In this document: positions 31,901-62,609 of the stretch, piece by piece
How positions within the stretch are numbered: the first letter of the stretch is position 1
Layout: every line of letters starts with the position of its first letter
Origin: Muricea muricata
Lineage: Eukaryota; Cnidaria; Anthozoa; Malacalcyonacea; Plexauridae
DNA: 64,000 bases
Assembly: GCA_963855995.1 (NCBI GenBank)
Contig: OY979720.1
Location: 1,428,501 to 1,492,500 of the forward strand
Direction of reading: 5' to 3'
Position numbers and translations under genes: made by a program
Notes under the pieces: model-generated
What the model saw: the letters and a program-made list of their open reading frames with translations, nothing else
Told to the model about the DNA's origin: nothing
Database searches by the model: none

Positions 31901-32994
31901 AAATGAAATTAAACTTCTAAAGATTTTGATTAAATTTCCTACGGTGAAAAAATACGATTTCGATCGGCAATTTTTATCTGATTCGTATTTGCTCAATTTC
32001 GCTTCACATTTTACAACAACGGTGACATTCAAAGCTAAATGCCTGGTCTTTCCAACTGTGAAAGAATTATTTCTATATGTTAAATATTACGCGCTCTAGA
32101 GCACTGCAAAGTACGATTTTTTTATAGATCCTGCATAACGTAACTTTAACATCAAAGGAGTTCGTGTAGTTTCAATAAAATTAAGGCCTTTAATTACGAT
32201 AAATTAAATTTGTATCAAGCTACCGAATTACCGATAACATAAATTATCATGAATTAAATTAACGCTATTAATACAGTGCACATTACATTTGCTATAATAT
32301 AATTTACTGATGAACTTATACGTGAATTATAATTATATTTCAAGCAATTACAAATTTAGTGTCATAAATACACAGAGAATGTAGAACATAAAATAATGAA
32401 ATATACTGAAAACGGTTGGTCACCGGAAGTTAAGTCATGTAGAAATCCTGCGTTTCAAATTTTATCTAACAAAAAAATTACAGTCATAAATGAAACAGGG
32501 ATTGGTTGTAAAAAATTCTTAACCACATTACAACTATCTATTTTGTAGTTAAATAGCAGTTAACTATCAAATGAATGCGCGCTTGGTTCACCTTCTCAAG
32601 AATTGTGAGGAAATTCAACAATTACTTTTTCATACAACAGCCCCCTGAAGTTAAAGGCGAAACATGTTCCCCAGACACATACCTAAAATTCCACACTTCG
32701 AAATATAATATTTTAAGGAAATTCTATATTTAAGGTAATGCTGGTGATTCTTTGTCTCATCACAACGGCATGAAGTTCTCGACCTACGACAGAGATAATG
32801 ATCAGTGGGTTTACAACTGTGCTTCGGAAAGGAAAGGTGGTTGGTGGTACAAGTCCTGTCTCAACTCCAACCTCAATGGTCTTTACCTCAAGGCAGGAGA
32901 GAAATCTTTTGAAGGAATCAACTGGTACAAATGGAAAAGCGACTACAGATCTATAAAAAAAACTGAGATGAAAATACGTCCTGCTCAGTTTTAG
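25967..32994 (+). CDS. Secreted fibrinogen-related protein, copy A
   Basis: Thirteen coding exons: 25967-26041, 26244-26391, 26763-26884, 26957-27165, 27694-27886, 28005-28099, 28231-28309, 28875-29099, 29279-29317, 29977-30111, 30391-30466, 30744-31121, 32735-32994; 677 residues, phases continuous. Order: signal peptide ([19 protein letters not shown]); a small Cys module; an N-terminal fibrinogen-like region starting [18 protein letters not shown] and running to the Cys-rich [15 protein letters not shown]; a segment [20 protein letters not shown] that resembles the trimerisation domain of collagens XV/XVIII; a coiled coil ([19 protein letters not shown]); and a canonical fibrinogen C-terminal domain ([19 protein letters not shown], Ca-site DRDND, C-x12-C loop with GGWWYKSC, NLNG, KKTEMKI). 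Such proteins are usually extracellular, oligomeric lectins. Exon 13 holds the ligand pocket and is the variable exon. Exon 7 uses a gtaaag donor overlapping an in-frame TGA. Confidence 0.88.
28593..28766. repeat. Inverted-end repeat before FReD exon 8
   Basis: Starts ggggccggttgctcaaaggt and ends cccaccttcaaacaa, imperfect inverse complements. Present at the same place in all four units (near 40047, 52757 and 58455), so it predates the duplications. Shares its GGGGCCGGTTG start with the MITE at 54307. Confidence 0.5.
31122..32734 (+). other. Large conserved intron before the variable exon (copy A)
   Basis: 1.6 kb, no coding exon seen. Nearly the same sequence separates exons 12 and 13 in copies B, C and D, with only small indels, in contrast to the exon it precedes. 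Confidence 0.6.
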
Positions 32995-33979
32995 CCTCAG
33001 GATTACATCAGTGATATATAAACTAGAGAGTTGTGTAGAACATAACTCATCTCGTATTCCATTCTGCCAAACTGTAAGCTGTTTCTTTACCCTATGCAAT
33101 ACTAAATATATATATATACATATCTGGCTATATATACACCAAATATTAAAACTTAGTAAAGATATATTCAACTCATCAAGGTAATCTCAATATTGTTATT
33201 TTTACAACAAACATGCAACATATTAAAACTGCCGGGTTTGTTATTAGGTAATTTTTTAATTTTTTCTTCACAAATTCATCGATGAAATCACATTGAAAAA
33301 CTTTGGCTGTGCAAAAGTTGTTGGAAATGTTGGCTTCTTTTCACTATGAACTTGTGGTTTCCTTTATTCCTAGAAAAACAGAAATATTACATACAGAAAC
33401 TGATTTTCTGTGTGTCAGCTGAATCTCAATTAAAGTGTTGTTGCCTAGTTTATGCTTCAAACAGAGGCGATGATTTTACATTTTAACCGCATGTATGGTA
33501 ATAAATTTCTATAGTTTATATATAGCGTGATCTTACATTTTATTTACAAAATATTTCAGTTTTCATTATATTACAAAACAAAATTCTATATTTGTGTTTC
33601 AGATTATATCTGGAAAATAAAAATTTTAATATACTTTTTAAAATATTTGTTTTGGAGAGTCATTATAAAGATTTGTAACAACTTTCCCCCATAATTCAGT
33701 GCCAAATTTCAAAAATTTCTAATCAGATTAAACTCTAATATATTTGCTTGTTTGATCTCTATCTATTTCTGGAGTAACAACTCAACTAAAGTGGAGCATC
33801 CAGTTGCAGTTTAGTTTCAGCGCGGTCAACACAATACAGACTGCTTCGACAAAGAATACACTGGTTTATGAATTGATTGCATCCTCTTCCCAAGAGCCTT
33901 GCGGTCCTGGGATTGATCATTCCAGAGGTTTCTCAAACATGTCATAGACGAATGAAGCTCTTACTCCAGATATGTTCTA
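32995..33979. other. FReD A 3' flank
   Basis: 3' UTR and spacer, no further gene. An ATTAAA lies near 33147, a possible poly(A) signal. Repeated after copies B and D, and partly after C. Confidence 0.45.
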
Positions 33980-34355
33980 CAGGGTGTCCCAAAAAAACCC
34001 AAAACTATTGAAAATGATCTATTGTTAGAATTTCAATGCCTAGCACTAAATTGAACCCACGAATGGATAAAGTATTGACTTAAAGTATTGACTTAATTAA
34101 TAGTAATACTCAGTGTTAAGCATTAACCAGTGTTAGCCAGACAAAAAAACTACACCTACGAGTGCATATTAAAAATGCAATCAAATTGTATGCATGGTTA
34201 TTTGATTTAGAGAAAACAATTTACAAATGTAAATTCCCATGAGCAAAACAAACGTACTTTACAAAGATATTTTAATTTTTTAACAAGTGCTAGGGCATTC
34301 AAATGTTAACAATAGATCATTTTCAATAGTTTTTGGGTTTTTTTGGGACACCCTG
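33980..34355. mobile_element. Mariner-like MITE, unit 1 only
   Basis: Ends CAGGGTGTCCCAAAAAAACC and its inverse complement GGGTTTTTTTGGGACACCCTG; the inverted match runs to about 45 bases (to GATCTATTG). A TA dinucleotide flanks both sides (33978-33979, 34356-34357), the Tc1/mariner target duplication. The sites at 45530 and 63585 in units 2 and 4 are empty. Confidence 0.85.
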
Positions 34356-34576
34356 TAGAATTCAACAATCTAATTGAAACATTTCAACGGTCAGGGTAAC
34401 ATTTTAAGGAAACAGGTTCACATTTCGTGACTGAAAGAAAAATCCACCTCTGAGCGTTCCCGCTTTAGGTCTTTCATCAGGAGCTATCGTGAAGTGCAAC
34501 AAAACAACATGAGTGTGGTAAGATCTTCCAGCTAGCATGATCTACATTCTCGTATTTTTAAATGTCTCTACGGACC

Positions 34577-35374
34577 TTACACAAACGTAACACGCACATT
34601 TCCTTCTTCGTTCGCTGGCTCATTCGCTTGCCAGCAAACTCGGGGTTCAATACTAGCGGCTTCCACGTGATTGTCACGTGCTCTACATGTTCCTGTTTCA
34701 GTGAAGTGGTCTCCTGGTGTATAAGAGTTTCCAGGGGGAATAAACAACGGGCATTTCATTGGAGTTCCATTCCTTTCTTTGGGGGATGAGGTTATGAGAG
34801 GAGAATTCAGCTCTGGCGAAAGTTGTGAAAATAATCGTGAAGGCTTGAGATGGTCTCTTAAAAATGAGTTATCAAGAATAGCTTGACGATCGTTACCCGA
34901 CTTTAAGGCGTGAGAAGTCGACGGCTCAGCGAGTGTGTGCACGTGACGTTTAGCAGTGGCCATATTCTCACAAAAATATTGGCTTGTCGGGCTCGAACGG
35001 AAAGGTACGACACTTCCCGACACAGCCAGCTGATCACTGTTTGCATTTCCCTGAGGTACAATCACTTCAGCTTTCGGAAAATTTCGGGTAACACCTTCGT
35101 CATCTGTCGTACTTTCGTAACCAGCACCTCCTGAAGGATCCGGTTTAGTCAAGCTGCGCATGCGATTTTTGTTGAGGGTACTTGAAACCCAAACAACGTC
35201 AGCCTTGTTATTATTCAAAGACATTTCGCTTTCATAATGATAACGAGTCCACGTTTTAAACACATTGCCGCCTGCTGTATCATTACAGCGGTCATATGAA
35301 TGAGTATATGGCAGCGATCTTGGTCGTAAGCGTCCGACGGTCTCATTTTGAGAATGTTTGAAAATCTTTTTCAA
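34577..35374 (-). CDS. Orphan 3' exon of a minus-strand gene, copy 1
   Basis: An open frame of about 265 codons on the minus strand ending in TGA-free sequence up to a stop at 34577-34579. The residues are polar, Ser/Thr/Pro/Asn-rich and without membrane segments or signal peptide, like a cytoplasmic tail. The C-terminus is NVRVTFV, and T-F-V fits a class I PDZ ligand; the same end is kept in copies 2 and 4. The frame has no ATG of its own near the left edge and is cut at the unit junction (35379), so it is most likely the last exon of a gene whose remainder stayed at the far right end of the array, beyond the window. Without its upstream exons it is probably not expressed as protein here. 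Family not recognised. Confidence 0.45.
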   Translation of the reverse strand: MKKIFKHSQNETVGRLRPRSLPYTHSYDRCNDTAGGNVFKTWTRYHYESEMSLNNNKADVVWVSSTLNKNRMRSLTKPDPSGGAGYESTTDDEGVTRNFPKAEVIVPQGNANSDQLAVSGSVVPFRSSPTSQYFCENMATAKRHVHTLAEPSTSHALKSGNDRQAILDNSFLRDHLKPSRLFSQLSPELNSPLITSSPKERNGTPMKCPLFIPPGNSYTPGDHFTETGTCRARDNHVEAASIEPRVCWQANEPANEEGNVRVTFV

Positions 35375-35763
35375 TCAATGCACACAACAAGAGTTGGTTG
35401 TGTTGGATGGCGCTATTCACCCCTTAGGATCGATTTCTTTGAACTGCAGTACTAGAAAGGCAAAAACGAAATAACACCAGGAATATTGAACTCGCAAAGT
35501 CTCTTGAACCCAAAAAGTTCTGAGCTTTAACTAACATTGGTTTTACCAGTTACTGAACATTTTTAGAAAGTTTGAGAAAATCACTATCTGGTGGATAGCG
35601 CTAGATTTAAATGCTACAATACCTCGTCTTTTATCTTGGGAGGGAGGGAGGTGTGAGGAGGTCCAAATTCAACCGTTCTGCTTTAATCTTTACATCACAT
35701 GAAAAGAAGAGATAAATTTAAATAGTTCAATATTAACTGTCTGTTCTCTATGTATTTTTCCAG

Positions 35764-36033
35764 CTGTTATCGGCCAGTGAAGATTCGTTCGTGAGAGTAT
35801 GGACGTTACCAAAAGATTCTTCTAACAAAGTAATAAAGCAGCAATCACATTATCTTTTCAATAAAGCACACTATTGTTAACCTACAATTATTTTTCTTCA
35901 GGTGGAATTGTTATTCCAAGTTCCTGTTTCTGGCAGTCAGTTATGTGACGGGCGTTTTTTTGACGAGTCAGGCCAGTCCTTTGGTGTCAGCGGTTATGAT
36001 TTAGCAGAAATTGTTGTCTTTAGAAAAAAGTAG
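35764..36033 (+). pseudogene. WDR54: Duplicated last two exons of WDR54, copy 2
   Basis: Exons 35764-35829 and 35902-36033 with intact splice sites, open frame and TAG stop. Only the last propeller blade is encoded, with no start codon and no promoter of its own. Differences from the parent include a Ser to Arg change in the last residues (VVFRKK) shared with the copy at 46926, so these two copies derive from one another or exchanged sequence. Confidence 0.85.
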
Positions 36034-36061
36034 ATTAGAAAATGAACTATTGTTAAAACCT

Positions 36062-36630
36062 TTTGCGTGATCGGATCACTTGAATTTGATCTGCCATTAA
36101 CGCTTGGATATAATCTACTTGTGGCTTCCCTAACGGTTTCAGGCCTATTATCTCGGGTATCTGCCCGTCTTTGCATGGTGTTATTTTGTTCATGTAGGTT
36201 TTCTACAAGTCTGCATAACTGTTGCCACCAGATTGTTATTGAAGACGATGGACCAGTGATGGACATACTTGGTCGGCCATGTTGAAAACATGGGTGAGGC
36301 GTGTACTTTATGTAACCTACCTTGTAACAGATCAGATATTGCGGGCTCGTATATACTGCGCAACAAGTTTTATATTTGCGGCGAAGTATTATATTAGAGA
36401 TCTTGCAAGTACCAAATATGAAACGAAGTAATATATTTGACATGAAGCATTATACCTGAGATGAAGTACTATATTTGCGGGGTTGTGTATTATATTAGCT
36501 GAAATATCTTAATCTTTTATATAAATGATTACGTGTTTCATAAATGTGGCATGAACTATTATATGTTGAAATAGGTATTATATTTCACATACAAGTATTA
36601 TTAAAACAAACGGCGCCCCACAATCTATTG
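36062..36630 (-). mobile_element. Unit 2-specific insertion, possible retroelement remnant
   Basis: This block replaces about 30 bases present in units 1 and 3. On the minus strand an open stretch encodes a polar segment (WWQQLCRLVENLHEQNNTMQ) that could be a gag-like fragment, and upstream of it lies TGGGGCGCCG, which resembles an LTR primer-binding site. Between 36355 and 36500 short degenerate repeats of the type gaagtattatatttg occur. No LTR pair or target duplication was found, so the class is open. Confidence 0.35.
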
Positions 36631-37294: not shown

Positions 37295-37304
37295 TATATT
37301 TATA
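37295..37304 (+). promoter_or_regulatory. TATA-like box of FReD gene B
   Basis: Same TATATTTATA and flanks as in unit 1, upstream of a non-coding exon ending at a gtgagt donor (37385). Confidence 0.55.
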
Positions 37305-37786: not shown

Positions 37787-40700
37787 ATGGAAATCCCACT
37801 GCTGGTTAGCTTGATCGTGTGGTTGTCACTGGGTGATCCGAGTGCTTCAGCTAGAATAAAGGTGAGTAGCTAGAACACCAAGTTACTTTGATGGCAAATT
37901 GTTCAGCAAATGCGAAAAAGACTAAACTATTACGAAAAGCCAAGCTCGGTTCTTTCAAGAACTTTTCTTGAACTTGTATCTTTAACTGCAGGACTTAACA
38001 ACATTAGTCGACAGTAAACCATCACTCGCTTATAGATATGATCCCACCTTATTTCCGATACTTCTGTAGAAAGTCAGTCTCAAAGGTTACAACCCTGGAA
38101 TATGCAATGAAACGAATCACGGCAACTTAATCATGGTCAAAGATCGTGACAACAATGATAAACTGCTGGTTTGTGCGGAAGAAAAAAGTGGCGGTTATCT
38201 CTGGAAAACAACTGATGGTAAAGTTTTATCTTGCTTTGTCACGTCAAGATGAGAAATTTAAGAACTGATGATTCTTTACATTTGAAGGTTCCAGTCCAAC
38301 GGGAGAATTCTTTAATCCTGTATATGACTGTTCGGATGCTCTCAACAAAATCTCAGATGCAAAAGATGGATTTTATTGGATCAAATTAGCTGGAAAAGTT
38401 CCAAACAAGGTATTTCTGTATTGCGAAATATACCTTGTCGCAATTTAGCAATAATAAAGTTAATAACTGACTATGTTTCAGCTGTGGTGTGACATGAGTA
38501 CTGACGGCGGGGGCTGGGCACTAATTGGTCGTTCAAAAACCGCTGCCATGTGGCGAGTACCATCCAATAATAAAACAGTTGAACCATTTGGCGAACCTCA
38601 TTGGTCGAGCTCACTTGGAGATGCTCCAATCCTTGACTTCCGGATTCAAGTAGCGACACAAGAAGATTTCAGTGCAACAAAGGCTCATTGGTGGGTATAG
38701 TCAGTATAGTCTAGTCCTCTTCATAGCCACATTGCGTGCCGACTGAGCTCTATTTACTGCAGTTTTTGTTTGTGCGTAGGCCGAAAATGCATACATATTG
38801 CAAGGAGTACTAAGAAAATGTTTTGTTTGTCTTCTGCTACATATTTCAAAAGAAAACACTTATTAATGTACTTATTTTAGTAAAATTTGAAAATTCTCTA
38901 CACTGGTTGGTTGCCCTAGAGGTGATTATCACGTGACCTGAGCGCCGTAAGCGGAATTTTCAAAATGGTTACCAGTCGTTTCGTTTTGTCAATTGTTTTG
39001 AATATGAAACGTATTTTTGTCATTTTTCATCTATGTGACTCTACTAAAATAATTATTCACCTCAAGCTCAGTGATTATCGGTGAATAACTTCGCCTTCGG
39101 CGAATAATTGTTAAATACTCCCAGTTCTATAGATTTGAACAGTGATCGTGCTTTGTGGTTACTGTTACCTGAATACCTGGCCACATTAGTTACGATGATG
39201 TAACGAATATTCATGATCTGTGTAGGTCATTTAGGTTCCAAAAAGAACGTCCTTTAAAGAATCTTTTGATGATTAATGAAGGTGGATGTGGTAGATTATT
39301 ACCAGGAATTGGAGATATTTCTTATGTTAAAGATCTTCAGACTGAGGAGATTGTCACAACAACATTTCGTTGTTCACAATTCACTTCTCGTCATTCGAAA
39401 TTCTACGGTTATGGTTGGGTAGGTTTGAAAAAAAACAAATTCTCATGTTCTGAGGTTTGCCTGAACAATTATATCGTTATAAACCTCGAATTAAACCCTG
39501 TCAGGACTACATGAAATTTAATTTATTGCAGGACATGTTGAATAGTTGTTTTGAGCGTCCATGTTCACCTGGTTTTGCATTTCACGAACACTTTCCAGTT
39601 CAAATGGACCATACAGGAGCTTTTGGGTAAACATTTATGTAAATATAAAGTTGATAAAAAATACAAATGGATGATCAGCATTTTCTGAAGATTACATTTT
39701 CAATATGACGGAAAAAACATGAGCTAATGCTCTATATTTATCCCTTCTTGTTACAGCTATAGTGCGAACGGAAATACTACTTCAGGAATTACCCAAGACT
39801 CGACATCATTTGTTGGCTGTGATAATCGTGATATAGTAAAGTGACAAATGTTTATTCTTTACAATCAGTTGACATCAAACTAATATTATAAAAAATTCAT
39901 GTTACTTAATGAGGATGATCTTTTAATCGTTCATCTCAAGTAATGACAAGCATTGAGTTCTTGGAATTGTTCAAAATCAACTTAGCCATGGCTGGAATAA
40001 CATGCATGAGAGTGAACCTTATTTTTAAATATTCCAATTCGACCAGGAGCTGGTTGTTCAAAGGAGGGGTTTTCTCAAACGATGCTCAAACACTATAAAA
40101 TTGAGAATTAATAAAGGAAGACTACCTGAAAATATCAAGTTTATTGTGACTTAACCTGATCAAGGTTGTTTTGGAAATCTTTATCCGGAGGATAGCACTT
40201 TCCCACCTTCAAACAATCTCACTCAGGTTTTCTTACAGTTGAAATTTAATTTGTGTTACAGTCATGAAATTTACAACAAAAATATTACAGATTTTTCTGT
40301 CATACATAATGATTTGTACCTCTACAGTGTTGTGGTTGTTTTGGTCCAGTTGGTGGTAAGAAAAATTACTGTGGAGCTGAATGCACAGCTAAAAATGGTG
40401 GAACTATTGAAAAAAATGTCTACACATGGTTTTGGGTGAGATCATCTCTACCAAAAAAAGTCTGGAACAAATGTATGGAGTATAAAGGAAATGCTTCTCC
40501 TGGGAAAGAAGTTTGGTACAAGTTATATCATGGAAATAATGTTCCAGTCTTGGTTAGTTTTTGCCTTTCTGCTATTCTTACCAAAAGATAAGAAGCATTA
40601 ATATTGATCAGCGTATTATATTATTAGGTTTAGGATCCTTTTTACTTTTCAGTATGACAGCAGACCTTAAAGATTAAGATTATTCTCAACTTATTATCTT

Positions 40701-43700
40701 ATAGTTTCGCATTTTTTTTCCATAGGGGAGATGTGATCAGAACGAACCTCTTCTGAACGATGGCGTAAGAATATTGATTTACATGCGCTATTTGATTTGA
40801 ATGTTAACACTGTATCACATAGATTTGTCGGAACAAATTGTGTGTATACAGTCAGGGAGGCCGAGGTCCAAAAATACATGTTTACCTACCATATCGAGGG
40901 GCAATTTCATTTTACGTTTATATTGTGTCTTTAGATCTGATAAATATATTTCTTTATGTTGAACGTGCTAAAATTTCTTGTGTGCTCCAGCCAACACGTT
41001 TTCCCCTAAATTTTCTGCAGAACTATATTACTGTCAAAAAAAGCGAAATTTCATATTTATTTCCAGGAAAAATCACTTATGTCATCAAAAAGAGCAAAAT
41101 GCATTTGCCCCTTGAGAGGATGAGTACAGCGTTGCCAACTGTAATTTTGTACAAGTCCCAAGTACGCTCCCTAAAAATCCCGAGATTTCCTTGAAAAGCA
41201 TTCATTCTCATGATTCCAGTCTCTGCGCAATTTAGGCCTCGGTCCTCTTATTGTGTGTTCTTTGCCTCTCGCTTTTGCTTTTGAGAGCCTTCCAAAACGA
41301 AATTTTGTTAAATATGCTGGTCAATAGGGCTTTAATACGAGCGCATGAACTGTCTATTTTAACAAAATCGTTTGTTAACTAGCTAATCTACCAAAACCTT
41401 GATTACTAAATTCAGAACATGGAGTTCTGAAAAATCCCCAAAAAATCCCGAGATTGAGTTTTAAAAATAGAAATCCCAAAAACATCCCAACTGATTTAAA
41501 AAAATAAAATCGCGGACTTGGCAACACTGGATGAGTAAAATCTTCTCTGCCTCCCTCACTAATATTGCACTGTAGATTGTGGTTGTTCCAGATAATGCCG
41601 CTGCCCAGAAAGTACCGCCTGTTCCGGGAATATTGGAATATCGTAAGGATACGAAGGAACTTTATGTAAGATCAAATGAAACATGGAATGTGCTTGTTGA
41701 TAAAAAGAAGGTACACAATGACATTCGTGTTATAGAATACCATGAGATGAAATGTGATTTATTGTGAATTATAAATCACATTTTTCACAATTAAAATGAG
41801 CATATTGATCATCGATTTCAAGGAATATAACTGAATAAGTTCAAATGATAAAGAACTGCACCTACGATTAAACAATAAATCGATTTGCCATTTTAAAAGG
41901 AAACAAATTAACAAACTCTCAGTCTTGTGTGATCCACATGGTGGTGAAAAGGACATTAAAGTTATATATTCTTCACTCATTACCAATTAGTTAGAAGAAC
42001 AACTCGAGGTGCTCAAGACGCTATTGAGAAGTGTTAACAAAACCGTCCATGATCACATCGGATTTGGTAAGATATATACCATTTGTGTTCTTTTAATTCT
42101 ACTTTGGGTTGAAAGTCTGTAAAACACAGCTCAGCACGTAAATCTAAGGCTGATTTGATTACAACATGTTCATTGTAACGTTACAATGAAACAATTGTTG
42201 ATTTTCACCACTAACTTGCAAATGGTCTCTGACAAAACTAAAAAAATTAGCCTGGGTGATTAGGTTGAAAAGATCTTGAGTCTCTGACTCACCGCCTCTG
42301 CATCAAGAAGGCCATCGGCGTAAGTTTATTGCAATTTCATTTTTAAATCGTTTTTGAAACAGAAAAAAGTTGTGCAGATCTGTATAAATCTGGAGCGAGG
42401 ATGGATGGTGTTTACACTGTAAATCCTGATGGTTTCGGACCTTTCCAAGTCAGATGTGACATGCTAACAGACGGCGGGGGTTGGACAATATTCCAAAGAC
42501 GACAAGACTCAAGTGTGGATTTCTATCGTGGATGGAAAGATTACAAAACTGGTTTTGGTGATCTTCACGGAAATTTTTGGCTTGGTTTGGACAAAATACA
42601 TCGTTTGACAGAATCAGGACAAAATGTCCTAAGAGTGGACTTGACGGATTGGACGGACGATAAAGCGTATGCAAAATATGGTTCGTTTTCTGTGGCGTCT
42701 GAGTCTGACGCTTACAGAATGAATTGTGCTAGTTTCTCAGGTAAATATGACAGATATTGATAAATTATCTTACGATATGCAGTGTATGAAACGAGTTAAT
42801 ATTTTTTAACTTATTCAATCTTAATTAGTGCAGCTGGACAGAATATTTACAACCTTGGCGTTCTTACTCTATAGATGGATATAAATTAAATACTATATTT
42901 TAAGGAGAAAAAATTAATGCACGTGACACATATTACAGTCAGTTCATATACCTTATTGCAGCTGAGAAATTCACTATATCAAAGCGTCATAAATCAAAGA
43001 GTCACATAATTAACATGCATGCACGGATTACCAGCTACTTTAAAAGTAATTAAATTAACGTGAATCTGATACTTAAATTAACTCGAGTTCATACTAAATG
43101 TGAACGTAATCGTCGTAATGCACTAAGAATCTGCACTAGAAGAAACTGATGGATGTTTTTGTTTTGTCTTTATACATGGTATATAAAAAATAATCAAACT
43201 TTAGAGTGCTCTAACGCGTTTATTATTTAATCTAGAGAAATCATTCTTTCGCAGTCGGAGAGACCAGGCCTCAAGCTTTCGATTGTCACCATTTGTGTGA
43301 AATTTAAAGAAACATTGAGCAAATACGAATCAAATGAAAATAACCAGTGGAAATCGCATATTTTCACTTTTGAACAAACAAAAACGCCATTAATCATTTA
43401 CCTGTCACGAGAAACAATTAACATGACTTATAAGATGCATTAATTAATCTTAGTTACCTAAGCTAAAATTTGTAAATTTTAATTCTCAAATGAAATTAAA
43501 CTTCTAAAGATTTGGATTAAATTTCCTACGGTGAAAAAATGCGATTTCGATCGGCAATTTTTATCTGATTCGTATTTGCTCAATTTCGCTTCACATTTTA
43601 CAACAACGGTGACATTCAAAAGCTAAATGTCTGGTCTTTCCAACTGTGAAAGAATTAAATCTATATGGTAAATATTAAGCGCTCTAGAGCACTGCAAAGT

Positions 43701-44566
43701 ACAATTTTTTATAGATCCTGCATAACGTAACTTTAACATCAAAGGAGTTCGTGTAGTTTCAATAAAATTAAGGCCTTTAACTACAATAAATTAAATTTGT
43801 ATCAAGCTACCGAATTACCGATAACATAAATTAACGCGATTAATACAATGCACGTTACATTTGCTATAATATAATTTACTGATGAACTTATACGTGAATT
43901 ATAATTATATTTTAAGAAATTATAAATTTAGTGTCATAAATACACAGAGAATGTAGAACATAAAATAATGAAATATACTGAAAACGGTTGGTCACCGAAA
44001 GTTAAGTCATGTAGAAATCCTGCGTTTCAAATTTTATCTAACAAAAAATTACAGTCATAAATGAAACAGGGATTGGTTGTAAAAAACTCTTAACTACATT
44101 GCAACTATCCATTTTGTAGTTAAATAGCAGTTAACTATCAAATTAATGCGCGCTTGGTTCACCTTCTCAAGAATTGTGAGGAAATTCAACAATTACTTTT
44201 TTCATACAACAGCCCCCTGAAGTTAAAGGCTCAACATGTACTCCAGACACATACCTAAAATTCCACACTTCGAAATATAATATTTTAAGGAAATTCTATA
44301 TTTAAGGTAATGCTGGTGATTCTTTGTCTTATCACAACGGCATGACGTTCTCGACCTACGACAGAGGTAATGATCAGTATAGTGGCAACTGTGCTTCGGA
44401 CTTCAAAGGTGCTTGGTGGTACAAGTCCTGTCACCAGTCCAACCTCAATGGTCGTTACCTCAAGGCAGGAGAGACATCTAGTCAAGGAATCAATTGGTAC
44501 TATTGGAAAAACGACCACAGATCTTTGAAGAAAACTGAGATTAAAATACGTACTGCTGAATTTTAG
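37787..44566 (+). CDS. Secreted fibrinogen-related protein, copy B
   Basis: Thirteen exons as in copy A: 37787-37861, 38070-38217, 38288-38409, 38482-38690, 39226-39418, 39532-39626, 39757-39835, 40328-40552, 40726-40764, 41576-41710, 41991-42066, 42363-42740, 44307-44566; 677 residues, no frameshift or stop. The start is [12 protein letters not shown]. Exon 4 encodes exactly the same residues as in A and C. Exon 12 differs from A at about six residues. Exon 13 differs from A at 22 residues out of about 86, including the loss of one Asp of the Ca-site (YDRGND where the others have YDRDND). Intron 2 is only 70 bp, against 371 bp in A. A hAT MITE sits in intron 9. Confidence 0.88.
41127..41529. 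mobile_element. hAT-type MITE, unit 2 only
   Basis: 403 bp with ends CAGCGTTGCCAA and TTGGCAACACTG (one mismatch as inverse complements), flanked by a perfect 8-bp duplication GATGAGTA (41119-41126 and 41530-41537). Ends and target length are those of hAT elements. No transposase frame. Units 1 and 3 have the empty site. Confidence 0.88.
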
Positions 44567-50132: not shown

Positions 50133-53100
50133 ATGGAAATCCCACTGCTGGTTAGCTTGATCGTGTGGTTGTCACTGGGTGATCCGAGTGCTTCAGCTAG
50201 AATAAAGGTGAGTAGCTAGAACACCAAGTTACTTTGATGGCAAATTGTTCAGCAAATGCGAAAAAGACTAAGCTATTACGAAAAGCCAAGCTCGGTTCTT
50301 TCAAGAACTTTTCTTGTATTTTTAACAACATTAGTCAGCAGTAAACCATCACTCGCTTATAGATGTGATCCCAACTTATTTCCGATACTTTTGTAGAAAG
50401 TCAGTCTTAAAGGTTACAACCCTGGAATATGCAATGAAACGAATCATGGCCACTTAATCATGGTCAAAGATCGTCACAACAATGATAAACTGCTCGTTTG
50501 TGCGGAAGAAAAAAGTGCCAGTTATCTCTGGAAAATAACTGATGGTAAAATAGATAAAGTTTTGTAATATATGGTTATGGGTGTTTTACCATAGACTAAA
50601 AAACTCGAATTTTTACTAAAGAAGATATGAAAAAATATGTAACGCGTGAAAAACGCGCGGGATTTATGTGTTCTCTGTCCACTTGTTCCGACTTCTGACC
50701 ATATAATAAAAAGAACATTACACGTTAGCTTGAAGTTATGAATATTATTTTCTCGTGTTGAAAAGTAAACAATATTGTTTTCACCACTCGAAAATGATAT
50801 TCATAACTTCGTGCCACCGTGTAATATCCTCTATGTATTGCTTTGCCACAACAAGATGAGAAAATTGAGAACTAATGATTCTTTATGTTTGAAGGTTCCA
50901 ATCCAACGGGAGAATTTTTTAATCCTGCTTATGACTGTTCGGATGCTCTCAACAAAATCTCCGATGCAAAAGATGGATTTTATTGGATCAAATTAGCTGG
51001 AAAAGTTCCAAACAGGGTATTTCTGTATTGCGAAATGTACCATGTCGCAATTTAGCAATAATAATGTTAATAACTGGCTACGTTTCAGCTGTGGTGTGAC
51101 ATGAGTACTGACGGCGGTGGCTGGGCACTAATTGGTCGTTCAAAAACCGCTGCCATGTGGCGAGTACCATCCAATAATAAAACTGTTGAACCATTTGGCG
51201 AACCTCATTGGTCGAGCTCACTTGGAGATGCTCCAATCCTTGACTTCCGGATTCAAGTAGCGACACAAGAAGATTTCAGTGCAACAAAAGCTCATTGGTA
51301 GGTATAGTCAGTATAGTCTAGTCCTCTTCATAGCCGCATTCCGTGCCGACTAAGCTCTACTCACTGCAGTTTTTGCTGGTGCGTAGGCTGAAAATGCATA
51401 TATATTGCAAGGAATACTAAGAAAATGTTTTGTTTGTCTTCTGCTACATATTTCAAAAGAAAACACTTATTAATGTACTTATTTTAATAAAATTTGAAAA
51501 TTCTCTACACTGGTTGGTTGCCCTAGAAGTGATTATGACACAATGATCACGTGACCTGAGCGCCGTAAGCGGAATTTTCAAAATGGTTACCAGTCGTTTC
51601 GTTTTATCAATTGTTTTGAATATGAAACGTATTTTTGTCATTTTTCACCTGTGTGATTCTACTAAAATAATTATTCACCTCAAGCTCACTGATTATCGGT
51701 GAATAACTTCACCTTCGGCGAATAATTGTTAAATACTCCTAGTTCTATAGATTTGAACAGTGATCGTGCTTTGTGGTTACTGTTACCTGAATACCTGGCC
51801 ATATTAGTTACGATGATGTAACGAACATTCATGATCTGTGTAGGTCATTTAGGTTCCAAAAAGAACGTCCTTTAAACAATCTTTTGATGATTAATGAAGG
51901 TGGATGTGGTAGATTATCACCAGGAATTGGAGATATTTCTTATGTTAAAGATCTTCAGACTGAGGAGATTGTAACAACAAAATTTCGCTGTTCACAGTTC
52001 ACTTCTCGTCATTCAAAATTTGACGGTTATGGTTGGGTAGGTTTGAAAACGATTAAATTTCTCATGTTCTGAGGTTTGCGCAAACAATCATATCGTTATA
52101 GACCTTGAATTAAACCCTATCAGGACTACATGAAATTTAATTTATTGCAGGACATGTTGAACACTTGTTTTGAGCGTCCATGCTCACCTGGTTTTGCATT
52201 TCACGAACACTTTCCAGTTCAAATGGACCATACAGGAGCTTTTGGGTAAACATTTATGTAAATATAAAATTGATAAAAAATACAAATGGATGATCAGCAT
52301 TTTCTGAAGATATAATTTTCAATATGACGGCAAAAACAATGAGCTAATGCTCTATATTTATCCCTTCTTGTTACAGCTATAGTGTGAACGGAAATACTAC
52401 TTCAGGAATTACCCAAGACTCGACATCATTTGTTGGCTGTGATAATCGTGATATAGTAAAGTGACAAATGTTTATTCTTTACAATCAGTTGACGTCAAAC
52501 TAATATTATAAAATGATACAAAAATTCACGTCACCTAATGCGGATGATCTTTTAATCGTTCATCTCAAGTAATGAATGATGGGAAAATTAGCCAATCAGG
52601 CCCAATCTTTATGTTCCTAACGTGATAATACGAGATACCTGAAAATCTTAGAAAAGTACATTGCATTGAGTTCTTGGAATGTTCAAAATCAACATAGTCA
52701 TGGCTGGAATAACATGCATGAGAGTGAACCTTATTTTTAAATATTCCTATTTGACCAGGGGCCGGTTGTCCAAAATTGGTGTTTTTTCAAACGATGCTCA
52801 AACATTATAAAATTGAGAATTAATAAAGCAAGACTACATGAAAATATCAAGTTTATTGTAACTTAACCTGACCAAGGTTGTTTTGGAAATCTTTATCCGG
52901 TGGATTGCGTTTTCCCACCTTCAAACAATCTCCCTCAGGTTTTCTTACAGTTGAAATTTAATTTGTGTTACAGTCATGAAATTTACAACAAAAATATTAT
53001 AGATTTTTCTGTTATACATAATGATTTGTACCTCTACAGTGTTGTGGTTGTTTTGGTCCAGTTGGTGGTAAGAAAAATTACTGTGGAGCTGAATGCACAG

Positions 53101-56100
53101 CTAAAAATGGTGGAACTATTGTAAAAAATGTCAACACGTGGTTTTGGGTGAGATCATCTCTACCAAAAAAAGTCTGGAACAAATGTATGGAGTATAAAGT
53201 AACTGTTTCTCCTGGGAAAGAAGTTTGGTACAAGTTGTCTCATGGAAATAATGTTCCAGTCTTGGTTAGTTTTTGCCTTTCTGCTTTTCTTACCAAAAGA
53301 TAAGAAGCATTAATATTGATCAACGTATTATATTGTTAGGTTTAGGATCACTTTTCACTTTTCAGTATGAAAGCAGACCTTAAAGATTAAGATTATTCTC
53401 AACTTATTAACTTATAGTTTCGCATTTTCTTTTTTTTCCATGTAGGGGAGATGCGATCAGAACGAACCTCTTCTGAACGATGGCGTAAGAACATTGATTT
53501 ACATGCGCTAGTTGATTTTAATGTTAACACTGTATCATATAGATTTGTTGAAACAATTCTGTGTGTACACAGTCAGGGAGACAGAGGTACAAAAATACAT
53601 GTTTACCTACCCTATCGAGGGGCAATTTTATGTTGTGTTTATATTGTACGTTTAGGTCTAATAAATATATTTCTGCATGTTGAACGCAATAAAATTTCTT
53701 GTGTTCTCCAGCCAACACGTTTTCCCCTAAATTTTCTACAAAACTATGTTACTGTCAAAGAAGGCGAAATTTATGATTTATTTCTAGGAAAAATTAATTA
53801 TGTCATCAAAAAGTAATAGATACCACACTAGCACCGAGGAAATTGGCACCATTTTAGGACATTTTACCATTAGGGCAACCGTAAAGATGTCTTATATGTT
53901 GTTTTTTATAAGCTTTCTGATAATATAAGTTATTTTTCAAACGAATGAACTTGAAAGTTTGCTTTTTTTGCAGCATAATAGATTTATAATAGAATGAAGA
54001 AAAACGGTTAATCGAAGCTCACGAGATAAATTGAGAATTGTTATATTAGACTTCTAACAGACAATTTAAGAGCAAAATAGATTTGCCCTTGAGAAGGTGA
54101 GCAATATTTTCACTGCCTCCCTCACTAATTTTGCACTGTAGATTGTGGTTGTTCCAGATAGTGCCGCTGCCCAGAAAGTACCGCCTGTGCCAGGAATATT
54201 GGAATATCGTAAGGATACCGAGGAACTTTATGTAAGATCAAATGAAACATGGAATGTGCTTGTTGATGAAAAGAAGGTACACAATGACATTCATGTTAGA
54301 ATACTTGGGGCCGGTTGTATCAAAGGCGTTTAGCTTAAACAGTGGATAAGAGAAATTTAAAAATCACTTTTACATTTAGTACGGAACCGAAATTATGATA
54401 GAATAAATATTTAGTTTTATACATAATTGTGCTTCTCAGGTCAAATAACTTCAGCGACTTTTTTTATACAACATTTAAACTTGTTTTATATTTTTGACTT
54501 ATCCACCGTTCAAGCTAAACGCCTTTGATACAACCGGCCCCTGGAAATGAAATGTGATTTATTGTGAACACTGGAATTCCTTTGATTAAAATGAGCATAA
54601 TAATGATTCGATTTCAAGGAATATAACTGAATGAGTTCAAATTAAAAAGAACTGCAGCTACGATTATGCCATAAATCGATTTGGCATTTTAAAAGGAAAC
54701 AAATTAACAAACTCTCAGTCTTGTGTGATCTACATAGCAGTGAAAAGGACATTAAAGTTATATATTCTTCACTCATTACCAATTAGTTAAAAGAACAACT
54801 CGAGGCACTCAAGACGCTATTGAGAAGTGTTAACAAAACCGTCCATGATCACATCGGATTTGGTAATATTTATACCCTTTGTGTTCTTTTAATTCTACTT
54901 TAGTTTAGAAGGCTCTGAAACACAGCTCAGCACATAAATCTAAGGCTGATTTGATTATAACATATTAATTGTAACGTTACAATAATACAATTGTTGATTT
55001 TTACCACTAACTTGCAAATTGTCTTTGCCAAAACTAAAAAATTTAACCTGGGTGATCCTAGGTTGAAAAGATCGTTAGTCAAAAATATTAAAGCCCAGAC
55101 AACAGCTTTAAATAGAGCCATAACATACTAAAAGCTCGATTAGATACTTTTTAAAATTTGTTCTGTTTAGTATGTTATGGCTGTATTTAAAGCTGTCGTC
55201 TGGGCTTGAATATTTTTGATTAAGCTGAGATTTCCGCCCGGAGTATCTATTGCTATTGTTTTGAAAGATGGTGAGTCTTCGACTCACCGCCTCTGCATGA
55301 AGACAGGCCATCAGCATAGGTTTATTGCAATTTCATTTTTAAATCGTTTTTGAAACAGAAAAAAGTTGTGCAGACCTGTATAAATCTGGAGTGAGGAAAG
55401 ATGGTATTTACGTTATAACTCCTGATAGTCTCGGATCTTTCCACGTCAGATGTGACATGGAAGCAAATGGCGGGGGTTGGACATTATTCCAAAGACGACA
55501 AGACTCAAATATGGATTTCTATCGTGGATGGAAAGATTACAAAACTGGTTTTGGTGATCTTCACGGAAATTTTTGGCTTGGTTTGGACAAAATACATCGT
55601 TTGACAAAATCAGGACAAAATGTTCTAAGAGTGGACTTGACGGATTGGACGGACGATACAGCGTATGCAAAGTATGGTTCGTTTTCTGTGGCGTCTGAGT
55701 CTGACGCTTACAGAATGAATTATGCTAGTTTCTCAGGTAAATATGACAGATATTGATAAATTATTTGACGATATGCAGTGTAAGAAACGAGTTAATATTT
55801 TTTAACTAATTCAATCTTAATTAGTGCAGCTGGAAAGAATATTTACAACCTTGGCGTTCTTACTCTATAGATGGATATAAATTAAATACTATAAGTTTTA
55901 AGAAGAAAAATATTGATACACGTGACATATATTACAGTCAGGTCATATACCTTATTGCAGCTAAGACATTCACTACATCAAAGCGTCATAAATCAAAGAG
56001 TCATCTAATTAACATGCATGCACGGATTACCAGCTACTTTAAAGGTAATTAAATTAACGTGAATCTGATACTTAAGTTAACTCGAGTTGATACTACATGT

Positions 56101-57554
56101 GAACGTAATGCACTAAGAATCTGCACTAGAAGAAACTGACCGATGTTTTAGTTTTGCCTTTATACAGGGTATATAGAAAAACAATCGAACTTTGAAGTGC
56201 TCTAACGAGTTTATTATTTAATCTAGAGAAATCATTCTTTCGCAGTCGAAGCGACCAGGTTTTTAGCTTTCGATTGTCACCATCTTTGTGAAATTTGAAG
56301 AAAAATTGAGCAAATACGAATCAAATGAATATAACGGGTGGAAAACGCATATTTTCACTTCTGAACAAACGTAAACGCCATTAATCATTTACCTGTCACG
56401 AGAAATAATTAACATGACTTATAAGATGCATTAATCTTACTTATAAATAAGTCTACATTTGTAAATTTTAATTCTCAAATCAGATTAAATTTCTACAGAT
56501 TTTAACCAAATTCCTAACGGTGAAAAAATGAGATTTCGACCAGCAATTTTTACCTGATTCGTACTTGCTCAATTTCGCTTCAAATTTTACAACAACGGTG
56601 GCATTCAAAAGCTAAATGCCTGATCTTTCTGACTGTGAAAGAATTATTTCTATACGTTAAATATATATTAAACGCTCTAGAGCACTGCAAAGTGCGATTT
56701 TTTATTCATCCTACATGTAATTTTAACATCAAGGAGTTCGTGTTGTTTTAATAAAATCAGGACCTTCAATTACGATAAGTTAAATTTGTACCAGCTACCG
56801 AATTACCAAAAACATAAATTATCATGAATTAAGTTAACGCGATTAATAAAAGTGCACGTTACATTTGCCATAATATAATTTACTGATAAACTTATACGTG
56901 AATTATAATTATATTTTAAGCAATTATAAATTTAATGTCAAAAATGCACAGAGAATGTAGAGAATAAAATAGTGAAATATACTGAAAACGCTTGGTCACT
57001 GAAAATTAAGTCATGTAGAAATCCTGCGTTTCAAAATTAATCCAACAAAAAATTTAGAGAAATGAAACAGGGATTAGTTGTAAAAAACTCTTAACCACAT
57101 TACAACTATCCATTTTATAGTTAAATAGCAGTTAACTATCAAATGAATGCGCGCTTGGATCACCTTCTCACGAATTGTGAGGAAATTCAACAATTACTTT
57201 TTTCATTCTGAAGTTAAAGGCGCAATATGTACTCCAGACATGTACCTAAAATACCACACTTCGAAATATAATATTTTAAAGAAATTCTATATTTTAGGCA
57301 ATGCTGGTGATTCTTTGTCTCGTCACAACGGCATGAAGTTCTCGACCTACGACAGAGATAATGATCTGACAAGTAGCAACTGTGCTTCGCTCTTTAAAGG
57401 TGCTTGGTGGTACGGGGCCTGTCTCACCTCCAACCTCAATGGTCGTTACCTCAAAGCAGGAGAGAGATCTTATCATGGAATCACCTGGGCCAATTGGAAA
57501 AGCGACAGATCTTTGAAAAAAACTGAGATGAAAATACGTCCTGCTCAATTTTAG
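50133..57554 (+). CDS. Secreted fibrinogen-related protein, copy C
   Basis: Exons: 50133-50207, 50397-50544, 50895-51016, 51089-51297, 51844-52036, 52151-52245, 52377-52455, 53040-53264, 53446-53484, 54142-54276, 54787-54862, 55359-55736, 57298-57554; 676 residues, frame intact. Same architecture as A and B. Exon 12 has its own changes (VITPDSLGSFHVRCDMEANG), closer to copy D than to A or B at the start. The last exon is one codon shorter than in A, and the pocket residues differ again (NDLTSSNC, ASLFKGAWWYGAC, RSYHGITWANW). The usual TATA region upstream was replaced by the truncated LTR, so expression may be lost or driven by the LTR. Introns 10 and 11 carry private MITEs. Confidence 0.86.
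54307..54541. mobile_element. MITE with long TIRs in FReD C intron 10
   Basis: 235 bp. Ends GGGGCCGGTTGTATCAAAGG and its perfect inverse complement CCTTTGATACAACCGGCCCC; the match continues inwards through GCGTTTAGCTT. Absent from the other units. No clear target duplication. Confidence 0.85.
55079..55218. mobile_element. Hairpin MITE in FReD C intron 11
   Basis: 140 bp, almost entirely palindromic: TCAAAAATATT to GCCATAACATACTAAA and back as TTTAGTATGTTATGGC to AATATTTTTGA. Flanked by TTA on both sides (cgTTAg and TTAagc), which would fit a PIF/Harbinger-type 3-bp target. Absent from the other units. Confidence 0.75.
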
Positions 57555-58207: not shown

Positions 58208-58805
58208 GTAGATACAAAAATTCGTGTTACCTAATGCTGATGATCTTGTAATTTTTCATCTCAAGTAATGAATAATAAAGAAATTAGCCAATGCTAATGT
58301 AATTTGCTAATGCAATGACACCAGATACCTGGAAATCTATAAAAACACATGTAGGATTGATTGAGTTCTTGGAATGTTTCAAAATCAATTTAGTCTTGCC
58401 TGGAATAACATATAGGAGAATTAATCTTATTTCTGAAGATTCTGATTTGACCAGGGCCGCTTGTTCAAAGGTGGGTTTTCAACCGGTGTCAGATGCTCAA
58501 AAAACTTTAAAATTGGGAAATAATAAAAAGACAGAAAAGACTACTTTTTCATATCACTCAGCCTGATCAAGGTTGTTTTAGGAAGTTTAAAAAATCTTTA
58601 TCTGGTGAATAGCGCTTTCCCACCTTCAAACAATCTCACTGATTTCATTTCTCCGTCCCCAGGTTTGGCCAGCACAAAGAGAGGTTTTGCTGCTGAGATT
58701 TTATTTGTATTACATCCAATTAATCACCATTCACAAAATTTACATCATAAATATTCAGACTGTTCTGTCATACATTACGATTTTTACATGTCTATTTACC
58801 TACAG

Positions 58806-61800
58806 TGTTGTGGTTGTTTTGGTCCAGTTGGTGGAAAGAAAAATTACTGTGGAGCTGAATGTACAGCTAAAAATGGTGGAACTACTGAAAAAAATGTCTA
58901 CACATGGTTTTGGGTGAGATCATCTCTACCAAAAAAAGTTTGGAACAAATGTATGGAGTATAAAGTAACTGTTTCTCCTGGGAAAGAAGTTTGGTACAAG
59001 TTGTATCATGGAAATAATGTTCCAGTCTTGGTTAGCTTTTACTATTTTGTTATTCTTACACGAAGGTAGAACTATTGACACTGATTAATGAATTACGCTA
59101 TATCATGCATTACGTTTACGACTGCTTTTCACTTTGCAGTTTGGAAGTAGACCATAAAGATTAGGATTATTGTCAACTTTTATGGTCTCACTTTTGTCTT
59201 TTTTACAGGGTCGATGTGATCAGAATGAAACTCTTCTGAACGATGGCGTAAGATATTTATATGTTAAAAAAACTTACACACGCATGAACTGCGATTGGCC
59301 CAAATACAATACAAAATGGGAATGGGATTAAGACAGCCACTAGGACTGTGGGATTTGTGCACTTGCAAGGGATTTAGTCAAAAATTGGGCCAGGAAATGA
59401 GAATATAGCCCCCCCCCCGCATGACCCTGCAAGAAATCTAAATGTTACACAGTCACTGTTCACATTAAAATCAGGTACACGTGTAAAAACGCTGTGTATG
59501 AACCCCAGTGCATGGAAAAATAGGAGATTTCTAATTCCCATTTTACCCCATCACGGCCTTCTTGAAACAGTATGTATTTGCACTACAGATTGTGGTTGTT
59601 CCAGATAGTGCCGCTGCCCAGAAAGTACCGCCTGTGCCAGGAATATTGAAATACCGTAAGGATACAAAGGAGCTTTATGTAAGATCAAATGAAACATGGA
59701 ATGTGATTGTTGATGAAAAGAAGGTAATGACATTCATAGAACTTTTTACCTAGCATTATTACTATAGGTAGATGAGATATCTTGTTACTAGCATACCATG
59801 AAATGAAATGTGATTTATTATGAACACAGGAATTCCTGTCATTAAAATGTCCACAAAAACCATGCAAGCAATATGACTTTGCCATCGATTTGTCATTTAA
59901 AAAAAGACAAATTAACAAACTCCTAGTCTTGTGTGATCTATGCAGCAGCCTAGTAAAAAGAACGAAGTATTAAAATTATATATTCTTCATTCATTACCAT
60001 TTAGTTACATGAACAACTCGAGAAAGGTCTGGCTCAACTGAAGACAATCTTGACATTTGGTAAGACGTTCATGTTCATCGTTTTTCTGTGTTCTTTCAAT
60101 TCAGATAATCCCAGCGCCGAGACTACAAGGTATATGCCCGGGGGATGTTACATACATACATCTGCGCTAGGAAATTTGTCAGAATAGTCAATACTTGAAA
60201 TAAGACTGAATCAGGCTACTGAATATCATTATAGCAATGCATATATTATATTAGTCAGAAAGATTACCTATATGTAAGGAAGGGCTATATTTTGGTTAAG
60301 GTTTAATACATTATTTTTCTCAAAGACAATTGATAAAAAAAGTTCTAAAACATTTACAATCATATATTTTTCTTGAAGTAACAAGTTGTTCAGGTTTGTT
60401 TAAATCTGGAGTGAGGAAAGATGGTGTTTACACTGTAACTCCTGATAGTCTCGGACCTTTCCAAGTCAGATGTGACATGCAAGCAGATGGCGGGGGTTGG
60501 ACATTATTCCAAAGACGACAAGACTCAAGTGTGAATTTCTATCGTGGATGGAAAGATTACAAAACTGGTTTTGGTGACCTTAACGGAAATTTTTGGCTTG
60601 GTTTGGACAAAATACATCGTTTGACAAAATCAGGACAAAATGTTCTAAGAGTTGGCTTGACGGATTGGACGAAAGATACAGCGTATGCAAAGTATGGTTC
60701 GTTTTCTGTAGCGTCTGAGTCTGACGCTTACAGAATGAATTGTGGTAACTTCTCAGGTAAATATGACAGATATTGATAAATTTTACCATATGCAGTGTAA
60801 GAAACGAGTTAATATTTTTTAACTTATTAAATCTTAATTAGTGCAGCTGGAGAGAATATTTACAACCTTGGCGTTCTTACTCTATGGATGGATATAAATT
60901 AAATACTATAAGTTTTAAGGAGAAAAAATTAATGCATGTGACACATATTACAGTCAGTTCACATACCTTATTGCAGCTGAGAAATTCACTATATCAAAGC
61001 GTCATAAATTAAAGAGTAATCTAATTAACATGCATGCACGGATTACCATCTACTTTAAAAGTAATTAAATTAACGTGAATCTGATACTTAAATTAACTCG
61101 AGTTCATACTAAATGTGAACGTAATGCACTAAGAATCTGCGCTAGAAGAAATTCAGATAGTGACAGTAAAGAAATTGACAGATGTTTTAGTTTTGTCTTT
61201 ATACATGGTATATAAAAAATAATCAAACTTTAGAGTGCTCTAACGCGTTTATTATTTAACGTGGAGAAATCATTTTTCGCAGTCAACGAGACCAGGCCTC
61301 AAGCTTTTGATTGTCAACATTTGTGTGAAATTTGAAGAAACATTGAGCAAATACGAATCAAATGAATATAACCAGTCGAAATCGCATATTTTCACTTCTG
61401 AACAAACAAAAACGCCATTAATCATTTACCTGTCACGAGAAACAATTAACATGACTTATAAGATGCATTAATTAATCTTACTTACCTAAGCTAAGATTTG
61501 TAAATATTAATTCTCAAATGAAATTAAACTTCTAAAGATTGTCACTAAATTTCCAACGGTGAAAAAATGCGATTTCGACCGGCAATTTTTATCTGATTCG
61601 TGTTTGCTCAATTTCGCTTCAAATTTTACAACAACGGTGACATTCAAAAGCTAAATGCCTGGTCTTTCCAACTGTGAAAGAATTTTTATATGTTAAATAT
61701 TACGCGCTCTAGAGCACTGCAAAGTACGATTTTTTATACATGCTGCATAACGTAATTTTAACATCAAGGAGTTCGTGTAGTTTCAATAAAATCAAGGCCT

Positions 61801-62609
61801 TTAATTACGATAAATTAAATTTGTATCAAGCTACCGAATCACCGATAACATAAATTATCATGAATTAAATTAACGCGATTAATACAGTGCACGTTACATT
61901 TGCTACAATATAATTTACTGATGAACTTATTCGTGAATTATAATTTTATTTTAAGAAATTATAAATTTAGTGTTATAAATGCACAGAGAATGTAGAACAT
62001 AAAATAATGAAATATACTGAAAACGCTTGGTCAATGAAAATCAAGTAATGCAGAAATCCTGTGTTTCAAAATTAATCTAACAAAGAAATTATAGACATAA
62101 ATGAAACAGGGATTGGTTGTAAAAAACTCTTAACCACATTACAACTATCCATTTTGTAGTTAAATAACAGTTAACTATCAAATGAATGCGTGCTTGGTTC
62201 ACCTTCTCGCGAATTGTGAGGAAATTCAACAATTACTTTTTTCATACAACAGCCTCCTTAAGTTAAAGGCGAAACATGTACCCCTGACACATACCTAAAA
62301 TACCACACTTCGAAATATAATATTTTAAGGAAATTCTATATTTAAGGTAATGCTAGTGATTCTTTGTCTTATCACAACGGCATGAAGTTCTCGACCTACG
62401 ACAGAGATAATGATCAGTGGAGTAGTGTCAACTGCGCTTCGGACAGGAAAGGTGCTTGGTGGTACAAGTCCTGTCACTTCTCCAACCTCAATGGTCGTTA
62501 CCTCAAGGCAGGAGAGATATATGATCAAGGAATCAACTGGTTGCATTGGAAAAACGACTACAGATCTATGAAAAAAACTGAGATGAAAATACGTCCTGCT
62601 CCATTTTAG
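58806..62609 (+). pseudogene. 5'-truncated fibrinogen-related gene, copy D
   Basis: Exons 8-13 only: 58806-59030, 59209-59247, 59589-59723, 60005-60059, 60379-60756, 62347-62609, all in phase and open. There is no signal peptide, no exons 1-7 and no promoter, so on its own it should not make a secreted protein. The coiled-coil exon is shorter and different (LHEQLEKGLAQLKTILTFG), and exon 12 starts VTSCSGLFKSG through another acceptor. The variable exon is one codon longer than in A ([26 protein letters not shown]). It could still be reached by splicing from gene C transcription, or serve as a donor for gene conversion; both are inference. Confidence 0.7.

Follow-up and report, generated by a model that had tools for sequence, protein, structure and literature searches.

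We found statistically supported positive selection on exon 13, the last exon, among the copies of a tandem array of FReD genes in the octocoral Muricea muricata. That a replacement excess is confined to this exon, where it lies in the domain and that it recurs in a second genomic cluster are results of computation; for another octocoral genus the observation is one of variability. The explanation that we consider likely is a germline-diversified set of lectins in which a constant N-terminal module is joined to a variable pocket under recurrent positive selection.

Gene Structure and Array Organisation

The sequence analysed, referred to here as the window, is a stretch of 64,000 nucleotides (C5:1428501-1492500). 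Copies were located by DNA searches with exons 13 and 12 of copy A, of which the best 30 and 10 matches, respectively, were placed as loci. Eight array copies were thus recognized on contig C5: A-D inside the window, E-G downstream of it, and H about 123 kb upstream of A. Exon-13 identity to A is at least 85% in all eight, and at most 72% in the rest of the matches listed. Across the 453-Mb assembly (74 contigs) at least 156 matches to PF00147 were obtained, that is, many FReD exons. The features of the window are as follows.

25967..29317, plus strand: exons 1-9 of copy A, encoding the signal peptide and the N-terminal FReD/intelectin/COLFI-like module (GT/AG sites and homology)
25967-26041, 26244-26391, 26763-26884, 26957-27165, 27694-27886, plus strand: copy A exons 1-5
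28005-28099, 28231-28309, 28875-29099, 29279-29317, plus strand: copy A exons 6-9
29977..30466 (29977-30111, 30391-30466), plus strand: copy A exons 10-11, linker
30744..31121, plus strand: copy A exon 12, conserved first part of the C-terminal FReD, Fibrinogen_C match
31577..32138, plus strand: imperfect inverted repeat (foldback) of about 560 bp in intron 12 of copy A
32735..32994, plus strand: exon 13 of copy A, last and hypervariable, coding for the P-domain and presumed pocket
37787..42740 (exon 12 at 42363-42740), plus strand: copy B exons 1-12
44307..44566, plus strand: copy B exon 13, hypervariable
50133..55736 (exon 12 at 55359-55736), plus strand: copy C exons 1-12
57298..57554, plus strand: exon 13 of copy C, hypervariable and shorter by one codon
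58806..60756, plus strand: copy D exons 8-10, 11 and 12, with exons 1-7 absent
58806-59030, 59209-59247, 59589-59723, 60005-60059, 60379-60756, plus strand: the pieces of copy D
62347..62609, plus strand: exon 13 of copy D, hypervariable and longer by one codon

Copy A comprises 13 exons with consensus GT/AG borders and yields a product of 677 amino acids, a gene model supported by the full-length match of P0002, a putative protein from an ENA contig that is 70% identical to it. Homologues of the copy A protein are overwhelmingly octocoral (43 of 46, from Paramuricea, Dendronephthya and Xenia), with a single one from the sea anemone Actinia. Fibrinogen_C (PF00147) covers residues 466-674 (E 3.5e-86, 289 bits against a cut-off of 22), and a COLFI match stays below the Pfam threshold; the same Pfam scan returned no Ig family at E <= 1 and no collagen repeat family in copy A. 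The N-terminal module resembles solved structures weakly, the best being Xenopus epidermal lectin of the intelectin family (E 3.8e-5), whose match spans about 84 of the 416 N-terminal residues submitted. Among ten scanned octocoral proteins, similar modules occur with TLD (P0016, P0018 and P0023) or with D8C_UMOD (P0015, P0030 and P0034), and with no FReD. A full copy consists of a signal peptide, the constant N-terminal module, a linker, likely an oligomerisation segment (exons 10-11), and a C-terminal FReD. Exon 12 supplies the conserved part of the FReD, and exon 13 its P-domain, which includes the Ca loop and what is presumed to be the ligand pocket. Both disulfide cysteines of the C-x12-C loop are present in all eight copies, and both Ca-site aspartates in seven, the exception being B, which has Gly at the equivalent of FIBCD1 D393 (44307-44566).

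The complete 13-exon set is found in A, B, C, E, G and H, exon 1 of H being projected with its own end. All 13 exons are present in copy F too, but its exon 4 contains a stop and its exon 6 is not followed by GT. Copy D consists of exons 8-13 only; its resemblance to the other copies begins at about 58211, inside intron 7, and the copy (58211-62609) lies behind gene C. The joint between exons 7 and 8 is of phase 0, and exons 1-7 of C could in principle splice to exons 8-13 of D, or D could be a truncated duplicate. An AG acceptor precedes exon 13 in each of A-D, and the frame is open to the stop. Between F and G lies a solitary exon 1 whose following exons are missing (L042/L043 area, ext 95525, C5 ~1524025). 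Ahead of copy A, at 22900-24830, are exons recognized by eye as resembling the 3' end of a WD-repeat protein; the last part of this stretch (24164-24855) is repeated before B (35384) and C (46534), and the duplication unit thus carries this segment along.

A Replacement Excess Confined to Exon 13

Between copies A and B, exon 13 differs at 24 codons, 22 with replacement and two silent, and exon 12 shows six replacement and seven silent changes, both exactly as counted in the initial annotation. A comparison of the translations by eye again showed no residue difference in exon 4 among A, B and C. The in-frame codon indels are confirmed too, C lacking one codon relative to A and D having one more. 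The near-identity claimed for intron 12 holds for A/B (3.0-3.4% differences), but is weaker for A/D (5.5-6.3%) and A/C (7-10%). Over the 28 copy pairs, exon 13 has pS 0.103 and pN 0.140 (pN/pS 1.36), against pS 0.111 and pN 0.053 (pN/pS 0.48) in exon 12. Exon by exon, in a table of seven copies that leaves out D, pN/pS is 0.09-0.49 for exons 2-12 and 1.32 for exon 13. The signal-peptide exon 1 (25 codons, 25967-26041 in A) has a pN/pS of 1.42 in the seven copies and is the only exon besides 13 above 1. Mean divergence is 0.133 in exon 13 and 0.076-0.082 in the introns beside it; given the equal pS and this near-intron divergence, exon 13 as a whole is neither older nor more mutable, and its excess consists of replacements. 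Forty-eight of its 86 columns are invariant.

Codon models (F3x4; M0, M1a, M2a, M7, M8a and M8) were run in our own code. In line with the positive selection proposed in the initial annotation, exon 13 has a site class with omega above 1 and differs in this from exon 12. Under M8 about 28% of exon-13 codons fall at omega ~7 (M8a-M8, p 8e-13); under M2a about 45% are at omega ~0 and some 27% exceed neutrality (omega ~7). The M8a-M8 statistic (2dl) is 49.9, 65.2 and 67.3 on three trees for exon 13, and 0.2 for exon 12. The chi-square reference is somewhat too lenient here, since 8/60 and 6/60 null sets lie above 2.71 against an expectation of 3; yet none of 60 simulations on one tree, nor of 60 on two trees mixed, reaches 49.0, the maximum being 7.6. 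Averaged over the whole exon, omega is 1.63 on exon 13's own tree, not significantly above 1 (p 0.07); the joint tree gives 1.95 (p 0.013) and the star tree 1.88 (p 0.019). Exon 12 has 0.52. The exon-13 signal persists without the partial copy D and copy F with its exon-4 stop (p 1.3e-9). In fourteen columns the posterior exceeds 0.9 whichever of the three trees is used: 23, 24, 27, 32, 33, 43, 44, 57, 59, 60, 65, 66, 71 and 85. These posteriors are naive empirical Bayes values, which are meaningless for exon 12 and for the type 1 copies of cluster C1 (below), where the model test is not significant.

Selected Sites and the Ligand Pocket

The initial annotation had located the changes at the equivalents of human fibrinogen gamma 322-324, 329-330, 340-341, 363-365 and 370-371, which we take to be columns 24-27, 32-33, 43-44, 59-60 and 65-66. 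Most of this placement stands, columns 24, 27, 32, 33, 43, 44, 59, 60, 65 and 66 being selected, but column 25, an indel column, and column 26 are not. One correction concerns gamma 364: relative to FIBCD1 the copies lack one residue in the loop at gamma 363-365, so that no separate column corresponds to gamma 364.

Sites were placed on FIBCD1 by phmmer alignment, with residue number equal to chain position + 235 (residues 236-461, PMC3908420). In this alignment, columns 33, 43 and 59, all selected, correspond to Tyr405, His415 and Tyr431, which the structural account lists with Trp443 and Ala432 as holders of the acetyl group (PMC3908420). Trp443 is column 70, unselected and adjoining the selected column 71. 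Selected column 23 aligns with His396, an extended-site contact as described in a later study (PMC10825690), and selected column 85 lies near the C-terminus, distant in sequence from the pocket region. The overlap depends on how the pocket is defined. With two site lists, three of the four pocket side chains are selected (p 0.013 and 0.008), four and three of the seven contacts in Table 1 of PMC10825690 (p 0.012 and 0.054), and four and three of the nine positions in the union of pocket definitions (p 0.035 and 0.11). The earlier claim that the variable sites sit at the pocket is thus upheld in that known FReD pocket positions are among them, while its significance varies with the definition (p 0.008-0.11). 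Alignments differ on the 431/432 loop: column 59 is Tyr431 by phmmer and rather Ala432 by an HMM of the eight copies, which makes its single-residue equivalence uncertain; as both residues are ascribed to the pocket (PMC3908420), the pocket assignment of column 59 stands. The count of one triad in 99 from the HMM alignment was dropped on account of this ambiguity in favour of a motif count.

Defined as an aromatic residue at 405, His415 and Tyr/Phe431, the full S1 triad occurs by the motif count in none of the 22 copies examined (0/8 in C5, 0/14 in C3 and C1), in 3 of 17 matched motifs from other octocorals (24 proteins given) and in 24 of 75 from other animals (98 given). Since the triad is incomplete in all of these copies, acetyl binding in the manner of FIBCD1 is not predicted. 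In 99 FReDs from other animals, too, variation is highest at the selected columns (mean entropy 3.16 vs. 1.50 elsewhere), which are thus generally tolerant sites; the pocket is therefore a tolerant or repeatedly re-specified region across FReDs at large. What sets the array apart is that omega exceeds 1 among tandem copies of recent origin, and that it does so within a single exon. Silent change is also higher at the selected columns (pS 0.237 vs. 0.081), which were themselves chosen for variation.

Recurrence in Other Clusters and Genera

Cluster C3, with all five copies included, repeats the pattern (p 5.9e-9 and an omega class of 11.7 in exon 13, p 0.46 in exon 12), as does exon 13 in the four type 2 copies of cluster C1 (p 3e-4); the five type 1 copies of C1 show no exon-13 selection (p 0.2). 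With C3 and C1 type 2 positive and C1 type 1 negative, the pattern is repeated and not universal. In C1, exon 12 also tests positive (p 2.7e-4), for some 2% of its sites, in seven copies representing 7 of 10 stretches (L062, L064 and L066 left out). For exon 13 of C1, ten stretches were fetched and L073, with a disturbed frame, was left out; L072 was kept in type 2 though without the loop cysteines. These tests took in the C5, C3 and C1 groups, outside of which lie further loci (C1 5 Mb, 34-36 Mb, 108 Mb, C22, C25 and others).

In six Dendronephthya paralogs, namely the proteins with a complete last exon (P0008, P0009 and P0013 left out), mean amino acid identity is 0.854 over exons 1-11, 0.846 in exon 12 and 0.629 in exon 13, and the one Paramuricea pair compared has 0.898, 0.921 and 0.671, respectively. 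The 28 columns that vary in Dendronephthya cover 12 of the 14 selected in C5 (p 1.2e-5); at the columns so chosen, pN/pS in C5 is 2.36, and elsewhere 0.54. Overlap with the C5-selected columns is 5/8 for C1 type 2 (p 0.0024), 3/6 for C1 type 1 (p 0.052, with posteriors subject to the caveat above) and 4/13 for C3 (p 0.13); at C3-variable columns the C5 pN/pS is 1.73, and elsewhere 1.24.

Recombination and the Intron-12 Foldback

In AU tests exon 12 rejects the exon-13 topology (0.0006) and exon 13 that of exon 12 (0.006), while a joint tree is rejected by neither (0.077 and 0.141). Between copies B and E, exon 12 shows a single difference in 378 bases, whereas the intron differs by 4-6% and exon 13 by 13.5%. 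Differences between them amount to 0.3% through exon 12 and some 430 intron bases, and to 5.9% from about A 31551 onwards (0/300 permutations), a switch point 26 bases ahead of the intron-12 inverted repeat (31577-32138 in A). This repeat, which takes up the middle part of the intron, is found in seven of the eight copies (A-G; 43170-43725 in B) and is missing in H. A breakpoint scan run without H split three of 21 pairs (BC, BE and CE, seemingly one event) at A 31551-31565, and placed the best split of ten pairs at the start of the scan (30849-30854). One recombination event near the foldback is therefore clear; a general hot spot is not shown by the scan. A constant-frame, variable-cassette system, in which intron-12 recombination, perhaps aided by the foldback, would shuffle the hypervariable exon 13 between copies whose upstream exons are homogenised, and D and other truncated copies would serve as alternative 3' cassettes spliced to the upstream gene C, seems to us rather unlikely.

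Evolutionary Explanations

The reading we favour, a germline-diversified lectin set, would run as follows. The array would encode octocoral FReD proteins, probably secreted and possibly multimerised through their N-terminal part. Recurrent positive selection would swap residues lining or flanking the pocket, while duplication and recombination would hold the remainder of the copies similar. The copies would then form a germline-encoded recognition set with different pockets on one constant frame, each presumably binding its own ligand, and their role may be directed at changing biological partners, most likely microbes, with symbionts, prey or other colonies as possible ones. The initial annotation had spoken of positive selection for binding diversity in recognition lectins; selection and pocket positions agree with this, and we infer "recognition lectin" and "binding diversity" from the family and those positions.

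A selected array may also serve a purpose other than defence, in the extracellular or skeletal matrix, venom, allorecognition or gamete recognition, which we regard as possible though not as the leading account. The skeletal proteome of red coral includes a fibrinogen-related protein (PMC7853314). The N-terminal module of the array is only weakly FReD/intelectin/COLFI-like and is joined to TLD or D8C_UMOD in other octocoral proteins; a matrix role alone, however, does not predict pocket-confined omega above 1 across paralogs. Local mutation, or import by gene conversion of diverged exon-13 segments with little selection on binding, would accord with the mutual rejection of the exon-12 and exon-13 trees, the B/E switch beside the foldback and the elevated pS at selected columns. 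It is nevertheless unlikely: exon-13 pS is the same as in exon 12 and its divergence about that of the intron, a mutator without selection would not yield replacement-only change, and recombination is accommodated by a combined tree that neither exon rejects and by the mixed-tree null, in which 0/60 sets reach the statistic.

Decaying duplicates with an exon 13 tolerant of change would explain the damage to F (exon-4 stop, missing exon-6 GT), the absence of exons 1-7 in D and the variation of the selected columns in FReDs of other animals. Such relaxed constraint is already disfavoured, and very improbable in our judgement, given an exon 13 open in 8/8 copies with more than half of its columns invariant, a large class of codons at omega ~0 beside the one exceeding neutrality, constraint on exons 2-12 and a signal that survives dropping D and F. 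Least credible of all is an assembly artefact, with alleles or haplotypes strung together as tandem copies. A single assembly is the basis of the array, but neither spacing nor exon content is uniform among the copies (D is partial and F broken), their introns diverge by up to 10%, no other contig has a copy above 72% identity among the matches listed in the DNA search, and the protein pattern is repeated in other octocorals.

Comparison with Known FReD Systems

FReD families and their expansion are already known. The closest solved structure to the FReD is human FIBCD1 (4m7f, E 4.7e-67), similar in fold by sequence (residues 2-210), Ca loop, C-x12-C loop and S1 pocket positions; its single-domain pocket binds acetyl groups, whereas the S1 triad is incomplete throughout the C5 copies. 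The N-terminal module is, we presume, unrelated to the FIBCD1 stalk. Ficolins and tachylectin 5A likewise carry a FReD with an S1 acetyl site, but copy A has no collagen domain and its S1 triad is incomplete. The sea-anemone proteins with Ig, collagen and FReD domains (P0046, Actinia; 62% identical over 31% of the query) are cnidarian FReDs too, yet by Pfam have Ig and collagen domains where the C5 copies carry the N-terminal module. Outside the FReDs, in what we take to be a different lectin family, stands tachylectin-2 of the coral Oculina. This putative immunity lectin gene has been reported to be under positive selection (PMC2880987).

The FREPs of Biomphalaria are also an expanded secreted FReD family, presumed immune, in which, according to PMC7588048, the IgSF domains are diverse and the FReDs relatively conserved. 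They combine IgSF and FReD, whereas C5 copy A has no Ig domain and the FReD pocket itself is variable. Anopheles and Drosophila FREPs share an expanded FReD family with a P-domain pocket, the core of which is described in two papers as likely conserved (PMC1242226 and PMC2429915). A tachylectin-5A-like FReD gene is up in parasite-exposed sea fans, Gorgonia ventalina (PMC3722494). This and the red-coral report fit octocoral FReDs generally, and neither concerns an array gene. Our literature search, with most subscription journals outside its scope, found no account of octocoral FReD pocket-exon selection behind a constant module.

To our knowledge, anthozoans have no antibodies, and the array bears on how they gain recognition specificity. 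What is new relative to the FREP families compared is that the FReD pocket is the variable part, encoded by one exon behind a constant module, a pattern that the pocket also shows in one more cluster of this genome and in a further genus of octocorals. The array thereby offers a defined set of proteins, with about 14 residues in each, for asking what octocorals recognise.
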